From: Mastigias papua
Lineage: Eukaryota; Cnidaria; Scyphozoa; Rhizostomeae; Mastigiidae
Assembly (NCBI GenBank): GCA_964019165.1
Contig: OZ025279.1
Coordinates: forward strand, 10,881,117 to 10,945,116
Direction: 5' to 3'
Length of the DNA: 64,000 nt
The notes beneath the pieces were generated by a model. It was not told the DNA's origin. It ran no database searches and saw nothing but the letters and a program-made list of their open reading frames with translations. A program made the translations under genes and the position numbers. Of this stretch, positions 27,001 through 30,000 are shown piece by piece; the first letter of the stretch is position 1; each line of letters begins with the position of its first letter.

Positions 27001-30000
27001 ATTGAAATAGATTATCTTTAAGGAGATTTTACCCGAGGGCAAATCTGATATGATTACCCCATTCCATCTGGAGCCAAGTTCGGTCTATCTGGCCAGAGAG
27101 AAGCCTTTGCTCTTGTCCTCAGTTCACTGACGTACTGACTTGTGTCTATTTACATTTTGAGGACAAACAATACAATCTTTCAAACAGGACCCAAGCTAAA
27201 TTTTGCTTTATATTGAGCTAGGAAGAGGGCCTGCTTCCTTCCCTCCTTCTCTCTTTCTTTCTTTCTTTCTTTCTTTCTTTCCTTCTTTCTTTCCTTCTTC
27301 CCTTCTTCCCTTCTTCCCTTCTTCCCTTCTTTCCTTCTTTCCTTCTTTCCTTCTTTCCTCCTTGGTTGATTTGCATAGTTTTAAATTGTCAAGCATTTAT
27401 GATCCATTTCTCTAAGGTACCCTATCAATAAAACAGTTATCTGTGCTGGAATAGAAGCCATAAATCTAGTAAACCAGCCACGTCGTCAAGCTATAGGCTT
27501 GTGATCTCCTGTTTACATACATGATTTTTTATTATAAATTTTTCTCACCTAATATTGAAACTTTCTTGGCTTCTTCACCGATTTCTGTACTGCAACTTTC
27601 TATAGACATCTTTAACAAGACTACTCGAGTTTAGCCTACGTAGTATTCACTCGGGCAAAATATCAGCGATTCGGGATACAGTTTGCAGCTCTCTCCTAAT
27701 TTCTAAAGCCCCATACGCCCATGTGGTAAAGTGACCTATTTTGAACTACCTTGGCGTGAAAGCAAAATAAAGTGAATGGATCTCGTGACGTAAGCTTTAC
27801 AGAAAATGCATCTTGGTTCTTGTGCCATGAGAAACTTTAGGCTGAATAACAAGCACGGATAGAAAAAGTAGTAAAAGCACGACTGAATTTTTACTAACAG
27901 GGTTTATAACTTTTTTTAAAATGTCGGGGGACACACAAGAGATTTGAATCTAAAAAGGAGAGGTAGAAAGGTTTTCGTTCAATACAGACACAATACGGTT
28001 GCCAACAAACTGAATCTCCCAGAAAATGCAGGAGAGTTTGAATAGTATTCAATACTTGATAAATCTTAGTTGAGAGTGAAGTGATGCTACCGGGGGAAAA
28101 ATGTGGTTGGTTAGATAAAAAGTGCTGGACTGCGCTAGTGGGATGTGAACCACAGCTTGAAATCGAAGCCTTAGATTGTATCTGTAATGATGCGAAGTAC
28201 CCACTATGCTAAGCCAGCACGCGCGGAAGGAGTGTGAGGAAGGTATTTATAGTAAACGCCTATTGAATGAAGCCGAACTGGCGAACCTTTAGAGACAACA
28301 TTTCAAGTTAACATATCACAATTTTCTTATGATCCATGGCCCATTTTGTTGGGAACAGCAAGGGTACACATCCAAAAAATGATTGAGAGGGTGTAAGTTA
28401 GGTTGGGAATCATAAACTTAAAGCAAACTTATTTCAAACGGATGAGTGTTTTTCGTACTGATTTCTCTCCCATGCAAAATGCCAAAAATATTATTCTAAA
28501 TTCATCGTGTACGTGAGGAGTATTAAGGCCTCTTGAAAATAGCATTAGTTTACCATCCCCTTGCGCGTTATTTTTTCCTCCGGCGTCGATTTTTCTTATT
28601 GTTTTAATTCCTCTTTTTCATATTTATCTTGATAGATATCGCATCATTGAGAATTAGTAATATTGCATTCGCAATTAGACGTTGTTTTTGTATCAGTTGA
28701 AGCCCCCCCCCCTCCAAGAAATTGATTACATTACCACCCCAGATCCTCCAATACAGCGCTATTCACAGCATGCCAGACTGTAGACCCTTATACAGAGAAT
28801 AAAAAAGCGCCGACGGCCTGCGTCTAAAATTTTTCGAAAAAGGACGATTTAAGGGGCCTAAATATGCAACGTTGGCCTAATATTGTGACCAATGCCGTTT
28901 TGGTATACATGTTTTGTAAGAAAGTGGTTTACCTACATATAAAAAGTGGGGGGCTGCAAACAATAAAATTGCTTGATGAAGACTAGGAAAATTGCTGGCT
29001 GGCAACAAGTGAGGGCTGAAGCCCCAAGCTCTCCAGCAACACTCGTTCTTATAAAGAGTGTAACTTAGGTTTGTGTAATGCCCGTCTGTGTAAAACTGCC
29101 GTTTTAATACTTCAATCATAACGAAACTAAGAAAGTGCCAATACTGAGCGAGAAAACTTTCTTTTCATATTAGGTGGGAGTATCTATTTGTTAACTATTT
29201 CCCGCCTGCCCTTGACCTCTGCTATCTCAAATTTCATTGGTTCCCATTACTTAGCACTTAGCAAAACGTCTAACTGTGCTGTGATGCTCAGGGGAGAAAT
29301 CAGAAAAAGTGCCGGATGGCGCAAGTGGGTATGTGGAATCGAACCACTACAACAAGTGTGACAGACTAGTTTTACGACCATAGCGAAGTACCCACTATGC
29401 TAAGCCAGCACGGTTGCCCAGATTCGATTGATTGTATTTATTTTAGGCTGGTATGGGAATGTTGCGTAAGCGTAACGCCACTTTCGCTACTTTTCCCAGA
29501 GTTCCCTCCCTTCTGATTTCTCTCTGCCCTTCCATCCTTCTTCTAGCATTTATCAAACAATTTATCTTCTGTAGCCCTCACTTTTTATGTGTAGCCCCCC
29601 TCTTTGTTTTGAAGCTCCGTGCCTGAACCGTGATATAACAAAACGGTGTCGGACTGCGCTAGTGGAGATGTGGATTCGAACCACGTCAACAGAAGTCGAA
29701 AATCTATTTGCCAACCAACAGCGAAGTATCCACTGTGCTAAGCCGACGAGAAGCAATTGGGTGGTGTAACGATATTTATTTTAGGGCCTGCCCAAGCACA
29801 AAGGCGGTGCTGCAAAGGAGGAGAAAAGATACAGAACCCTTACTTATCTGTAACCCAGATCAAAATGGATCCGCGTTTGGACCCCTTGTACTTGTAGTAT
29901 AAACTTTGAAAACTACGCTGCAACGGGCAAACCTGCTGAAGTTCGTTCGGTTTTGATTATTCTAAATTGTCAGCGTAAATGAGAGTGGCCTAAGCCAAGC

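Follow-up and report, generated by a model that had tools for sequence, protein, structure and literature searches.

Are the three units of about 100 nt that lie close together on one strand of a 64-kb stretch of Mastigias papua DNA (the whole stretch that was analysed, called the window below) vault RNA genes, as a sequence-only reading had proposed? The animal range of vault RNAs is described mainly through deuterostomes in the available text of the reviews (PMC7058938, PMC10491885, PMC9179338).

The whole window was compared with all 4227 families of Rfam 15 by cmscan. Four matches scored above the curated cut-offs, one to tRNA and three to the Vault family RF00006, for which the gathering score is 34 bits. 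All three Vault matches extended over the full model:

28118..28220, minus strand: candidate vault RNA gene copy vt1, with an Rfam match of 103 nt; RF00006 53.4 bits, E 3.7e-9, model 1-99/99
29305..29411, minus strand: candidate vault RNA gene copy vt2, 107 nt; RF00006 57.9 bits, E 2e-10, model 1-99/99
29642..29749, minus strand: candidate vault RNA gene copy vt3, 108 nt; RF00006 43.3 bits, E 2.7e-6, model 1-99/99; the weakest copy, possibly decaying

In 5' to 3' order on the minus strand vt3 comes first, followed by vt2 and then vt1, and the cluster spans 1.6 kb. No fourth Vault match was present among the 39 Rfam matches listed at E ≤ 5 for the whole 64-kb window. These full-length matches confirmed the number, size, common strand and place that had been proposed for the units, and the check with the Rfam covariance model that had been suggested was passed by all of them (E 2e-10 to 2.7e-6). 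The proposed likeness to the layout of vertebrate vault RNAs was upheld by the end-to-end match of each unit; in 3/3 units the ACTTCG that follows box A and the GCGC..TCC that precedes the 3' stem were aligned to the Vault model. Judged from sequence, the three units very probably are vault RNA genes of a medusozoan cnidarian that form a tandem cluster of paralogues, and vt1 and vt2 look intact.

That the host is an invertebrate was likewise sustained, as the proteins encoded in the window point to a cnidarian. A gene with many exons for the AMPK alpha catalytic subunit was found at 2933-16161 on the plus strand. Its hand-joined protein showed 89% identity to a JGI protein (96% over 475 columns of the tree alignment), and the best among the named matches listed was from Clytia hemisphaerica (64%). 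A tree was made from 31 rows (30 of them hand-picked from 120 listed matches, with no named scyphozoan AMPK). In it the window protein grouped with Clytia and Hydra (support 100/99), apart from the included anthozoans and bilaterians, and was placed outside the group of Hydra and Clytia. Other coding sequences detected in the window were an exon of a GET3/ArsA-type ATPase gene (80-364, minus strand) and an ankyrin-repeat protein in one open frame (59154-60539, plus strand). The best named match of the latter was from the jellyfish Rhopilema esculentum (46%), the other named match was from a crinoid (28%), and its other relatives showed at most 72% identity. Together, the AMPK tree and the ankyrin protein make a medusozoan the most likely host. 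A Pfam scan of 10 further frames gave nothing above the cut-off.

An internal type 2 Pol III promoter was recognised in each unit, with the following boxes:

28201..28211, minus strand: box A of vt1, TAGCATAGTGG at +10, exact to TRGYnnARBGG
29392..29402, minus strand: box A of vt2, TAGCATAGTGG at +10, exact to TRGYnnARBGG
29730..29740, minus strand: box A of vt3, TAGCACAGTGG at +10, exact to TRGYnnARBGG
28141..28151, minus strand: box B of vt1, GGTTCACATCC at +70, one mismatch to GGTTCRAnYCY
29335..29345, minus strand: box B of vt2, GGTTCGATTCC at +67, exact to GGTTCRAnYCY
29672..29682, minus strand: box B of vt3, GGTTCGAATCC at +68, exact to GGTTCRAnYCY

The common box A block and the box B described before were borne out, box A being exact in 3/3 units and box B in 2/3. 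Copies vt1 and vt2 begin with the same 29 nt, and vt3 agrees with them at 23/29 of these positions. The copies also resemble each other in their 3' parts (identical in 30/41, 30/41, and 32/41 aligned columns), whereas their central parts have little in common (19/43, 21/45, and 24/39). Similar ends combined with divergent loops suggest that the copies would have promoter, stem and protein docking in common and would differ in the loop.

The ends of each unit pair with each other, as had been described. The closing stem contains 7 pairs in vt1, 7 in vt2 (one of them T-G) and 5 in vt3, in which the two outermost pairs are lost. When the closing stem and the inner helix were written out by hand as 16 pairs, the standard pairs numbered 16 in vt1, 15 in vt2 (one of these 15 being the T-G) and 13 in vt3, a count that is descriptive and no test, as the pairs were picked from the same three sequences. 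Two-sided changes between copies were found at 3/16 pairs, all three of them in vt3. The compensatory change reported for the inner helix (GTGGG/CCCAC versus GTGGA/TCCAC) proved real, with G-C in vt1 and vt2 and A-T in vt3, and two further cases were detected in the closing stem (C-G/C-G/T-A and T-A/T-G/C-G in vt1/vt2/vt3). For this reading of pairs the gap-free 3' part was used, the alignment having put one C of vt1 on the presumed wrong side of a gap. Around box B a hairpin of 4 bp was folded in vt2 and vt3; vt1, in which this part of the alignment has 7 columns fewer, lacks it. Folding energies were scored against 200 dinucleotide shuffles per copy. The excess was clear for vt1 (z -3.06; 2/200 shuffles as good) and modest for vt2 (z -1.96; 6/200), and vt3 showed none over its 200 shuffles (z -1.06; 33/200), which means that folding by itself would not make the case for vt3.

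Outside the matched region, the 104-nt 5' flanks were put into a gap-free alignment anchored at the box A block, with distances counted from the first base of the Rfam match. The three flanks agree in 19/104 columns, and their longest common run is a TATA-like heptamer present at the same distance in 3/3:

28244..28250, minus strand: TATA-like element of vt1, ATAAATA at -30 to -24, context TATAAATA
29435..29441, minus strand: TATA-like element of vt2, ATAAATA at -30 to -24
29773..29779, minus strand: TATA-like element of vt3, ATAAATA at -30 to -24

In Pol III genes the -30 region is where a TATA or TATA-like box sits (PMC7279448). Common runs of at least 7 were seen in 0/200,000 random triples of window segments (longest 6) and runs of 7 in 0/200,000 shuffles of the real flanks; these controls treat the copies as independent, and the copies are paralogues. 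The stretches from -23 to -1 are, however, unalike between the copies (8/23, 11/24, and 9/32 aligned columns), which makes it unlikely that ATAAATA is a mere residue of duplication. With this element fixed at -30 to -24 in flanks that have otherwise diverged, the units look like genes with a composite promoter and not like SINE copies. A CRE-like site near -50 was found in none of vt1, vt2, and vt3 (120-nt flanks, two mismatches allowed). At this stringency one CRE-like site occurred in the three 120-nt flanks (vt2, at -69), with 0.40 expected per flank. The external promoter elements are thus TATA-like in 3/3 and CRE-like near -50 in 0/3, and the neighbouring tRNA gene is AT-rich at -30 as well:

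30341..30412, minus strand, the same strand as the cluster: tRNA-Gly(TCC) gene, RF00005 63.4 bits and called by ARAGORN, with the all-AT stretch AATATATTTA upstream at about -30 (about 30435-30446)

This gene lies approximately 0.6 kb from vt3. Because it is AT-rich at the same place, the -30 element may not be vault-specific but general to the Pol III genes of this animal. TATA boxes are described as rare at animal tRNA genes (PMC7279448). The window is AT-rich, with 1.1% of 10-nt stretches all A/T and 14% holding an AT run of at least 6, and given the 1.1% background the AT stretch of this one tRNA gene is weak evidence. A survey of both strands of the 64 kb detected 13 exact box A sites and, with up to one mismatch allowed, 17 sites for box B. 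Only four A-B pairs had a spacing of 25-75 nt, namely vt1, vt2, vt3, and tRNA-Gly, and all 4/4 are followed by a T run and have an AT run of at least 6 near -30.

A T4-T5 terminator had been described directly behind the closing stem of every unit. This held for vt1 and vt2, both with a T5; in vt3 the run is a T4 that is located 4 nt further on, and a second run of four Ts is found inside the unit:

28117..28121, minus strand: T5 terminator of vt1, a T run
29304..29308, minus strand: T5 terminator of vt2, a T run
29640..29643, minus strand: T4 terminator of vt3, at a distance of 4 nt from the closing stem
29699..29702, minus strand: internal TTTT of vt3, +48 to +51

A panhandle with a terminator of at least four Ts is accordingly seen in each copy (7/7/5 closing pairs; T5/T5/T4, that of vt3 being 4 nt off the stem). 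The internal TTTT of vt3 is a possible premature stop for Pol III, and vt3 may be weakly expressed or decaying. Taken further, vt3 could be a decaying pseudogene beside the two genes vt1 and vt2, so that the cluster would effectively consist of two genes, a reading that is compatible with a trio of vault RNA origin. It would explain the lowest Vault score of the three (43.3 bits), the missing outer pairs, the displaced terminator, the TTTT inside the unit and a fold that is no better than its shuffles. However, box A and box B of vt3 are exact and its -30 element is intact, and the fact that all three two-sided changes sit in vt3 suggests selection on its structure after duplication. We regard the pseudogene as a real possibility that falls somewhat short of an even chance.

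A second explanation is that the units belong to another family of Pol III RNAs that has converged on the vault layout, with the same promoter grammar and a different function. The two boxes and the closing stem, which account for much of the Vault signal, are partly common to other type 2 Pol III RNAs; besides, the central loop is unconserved even among vt1, vt2, and vt3, and the CRE-like site near -50 was not found. Convergence is nevertheless very unlikely in our view, as the Vault match runs from end to end and includes the ACTTCG and GCGC..TCC pieces in 3/3, and a Vault RNA has been reported in Hydractinia (PMC11067881).

A small family of tRNA-derived SINEs, whose reverse-transcribed copies would still carry box A and box B, was considered as well. 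The two boxes are tRNA-like, there are three copies, a tRNA gene is close to vt3, and a family of some hundreds of genomic copies could escape a 64-kb window. However, the Rfam Vault scores are 43-58 bits versus a tRNA score of 23.4 bits in vt2, and the copies are clustered, with only 12-, 12-, and 16-nt matches outside the units by blastn (E ≤ 1) in the window. In addition, the 7-nt element keeps a constant distance although it lies outside the transcript, and such an element is not brought along by retroposition; the positions -31/-24 upstream of SINE copies are described as occupied by random sequences (PMC7279448). As far as the 64-kb window shows, clustering and the -30 element together disfavour a SINE family of moderate copy number, and we consider this origin of the units most improbable.

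The search for further copies was extended with a model built from the three units, which gave 21 matches in the window at E ≤ 10. The three units scored 122, 111.9, and 92.4 bits. Next came a long hairpin at 56115-56224, matched once per strand with 24.7 bits (E 0.0002) and 22 bits (E 0.0012). The opposite strand of vt2 gave 20.6 bits and that of vt1 13.8 bits, and the other 14 matches reached at most 11.7 bits. The 18 extra matches were rejected as vault copies and read as hairpin or chance matches, none of them being listed by the Rfam Vault model. The box A block gave 0 matches in a viral contig collection, a result that is uninformative for animals.

The hairpin itself (56119-56224) is long and near-perfect, 92% self-complementary over 106 nt. 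It showed sub-threshold matches to Rfam microRNA families (mir-1263, 54 bits against a cut-off of 95), and no second copy was found in the window by blastn (E ≤ 1e-3); possibly it is a MITE or a microRNA-like hairpin. Another long inverted repeat, at 54729-54836, matched MIR2593 in both orientations, with 48.5 and 46.2 bits below the threshold of 96.2, and is probably a MITE. Long simple repeats of CA, TA, and GAT type were seen at 40009-40275, 43168-43970, and 49056-49280, where the translated frames show stretches of TH, YI, and D residues.

A tRNA identity of the units was rejected, as vt2 scored only 23.4 bits to RF00005, below the cut-off of 29, vt1 and vt3 had no tRNA match among those listed at E ≤ 5 (Rfam, 64-kb window), and ARAGORN called only the nearby tRNA-Gly.

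On the preferred reading of the units as vault RNA genes, the architecture comprises boxes A and B, the element at -30 to -24, a panhandle stem, a helix at box A inside it, a central loop that varies, and a terminal run of four or five Ts. TFIIIC would bind boxes A and B and place TFIIIB, with TBP on the TATA-like element. Transcription by Pol III would begin about where the closing stem begins and end in the T run, which would give a U-tailed RNA of approximately 100 nt. Following the biology of the family, La would hold the U tail and TEP1 would load part of the RNA into vaults built of MVP, the rest staying free. For human vtRNA1-1 the vault-bound share is put at only about 5% (PMC9179338), and a transcript of the major vault protein has been reported in Hydra (PMC2386466). 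The CRE-like site that was not found near -50, the fold of vt3 and the missing box B hairpin of vt1 count against the reading as vault RNA genes.

Compared with vault RNAs of vertebrates, including human (RF00006; VTRNA1-1/1-2/1-3, rodent, bullfrog), the Mastigias units are similar in covariance match, boxes A and B, closing stem, T run, and a length of about 100 nt. Human VTRNA1 is likewise a small cluster of three (PMC10491885), and its locus has a TATA box upstream (PMC13404743). Vertebrate vault genes pair internal boxes with upstream elements (PMC7058938). A CRE-like site near -50 is described for them, whereas none was found there in the Mastigias units, and the loop sequences of the units are unconserved compared with members of RF00006. 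The neighbours differ as well, being protocadherin/ZMAT2 or SMAD5 in mammals (PMC10491885) and a tubulin-tyrosine-ligase-like gene and tRNA-Gly here. Exons of the former gene (Pfam TTL) were found at 22912-23166 and 25652-25891 on the plus strand, a few kb left of the vault cluster. The units have their internal type 2 promoter in common with tRNA-derived SINEs and with the Pol III genes 4.5SI and 4.5SH of rodents; in these rodent genes a TATA-like box is present at -31/-24 as well (PMC7279448). The units differ from SINEs and 4.5S genes by the lack of dispersed copies within the window and by the end-to-end vault match.

Within Cnidaria, Vault RNA was found in two species of the hydrozoan Hydractinia by Rfam and Infernal, as stated in one sentence (PMC11067881). 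That RNA is likened to the Mastigias units by description, both being cnidarian and detected with Rfam/Infernal; its sequences belong to Supplemental Table S18 (PMC11067881). The vault RNA of Trypanosoma brucei, a small RNA that co-immunoprecipitates with MVP1 (PMC12547018), is from another branch of eukaryotes and is also likened by description, not by sequence. Vault RNAs are known from all major deuterostome lineages and from two lophotrochozoan ones (PMC2770079). The claim that the cluster is probably undescribed was therefore too strong, as invertebrate vault RNAs have been published (PMC2770079) and a Hydractinia Vault RNA is listed (PMC11067881). This particular locus has perhaps not been annotated before, but for Cnidaria as a group the RNA class is no novelty. 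Beyond PMC11067881, no further report of a cnidarian vault RNA was found in the open-licence literature, as far as its available text goes. The combination of a trio, a fixed -30 element, and similar ends with divergent loops was found for a cnidarian in none of the literature examined, in the parts that were available.

TATA-assisted type 2 Pol III promoters are the rule in plants and fission yeast. As the adjacent tRNA-Gly has a stretch like that of the vault units, such promoters are perhaps the rule in this lineage too. Taken together with a composite vault promoter (boxes A and B plus TATA at -30 to -24) that would predate the split of cnidarians and bilaterians, and with retained paralogues of like ends and unlike loops acting as separate adaptors on one docking scaffold, this forms a joint proposal that we put forward as speculative and rather unlikely to hold in full.

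The function and the age of vault RNA are open questions, and a cnidarian locus as clean as this one, with its promoter still recognisable, would provide a non-bilaterian anchor for the family. The locus offers material to improve the Rfam Vault model, and the question whether paralogous vault RNAs act inside or outside the vault particle could be addressed with it. Its use lies in a well-preserved gene and promoter layout outside bilaterian animals.
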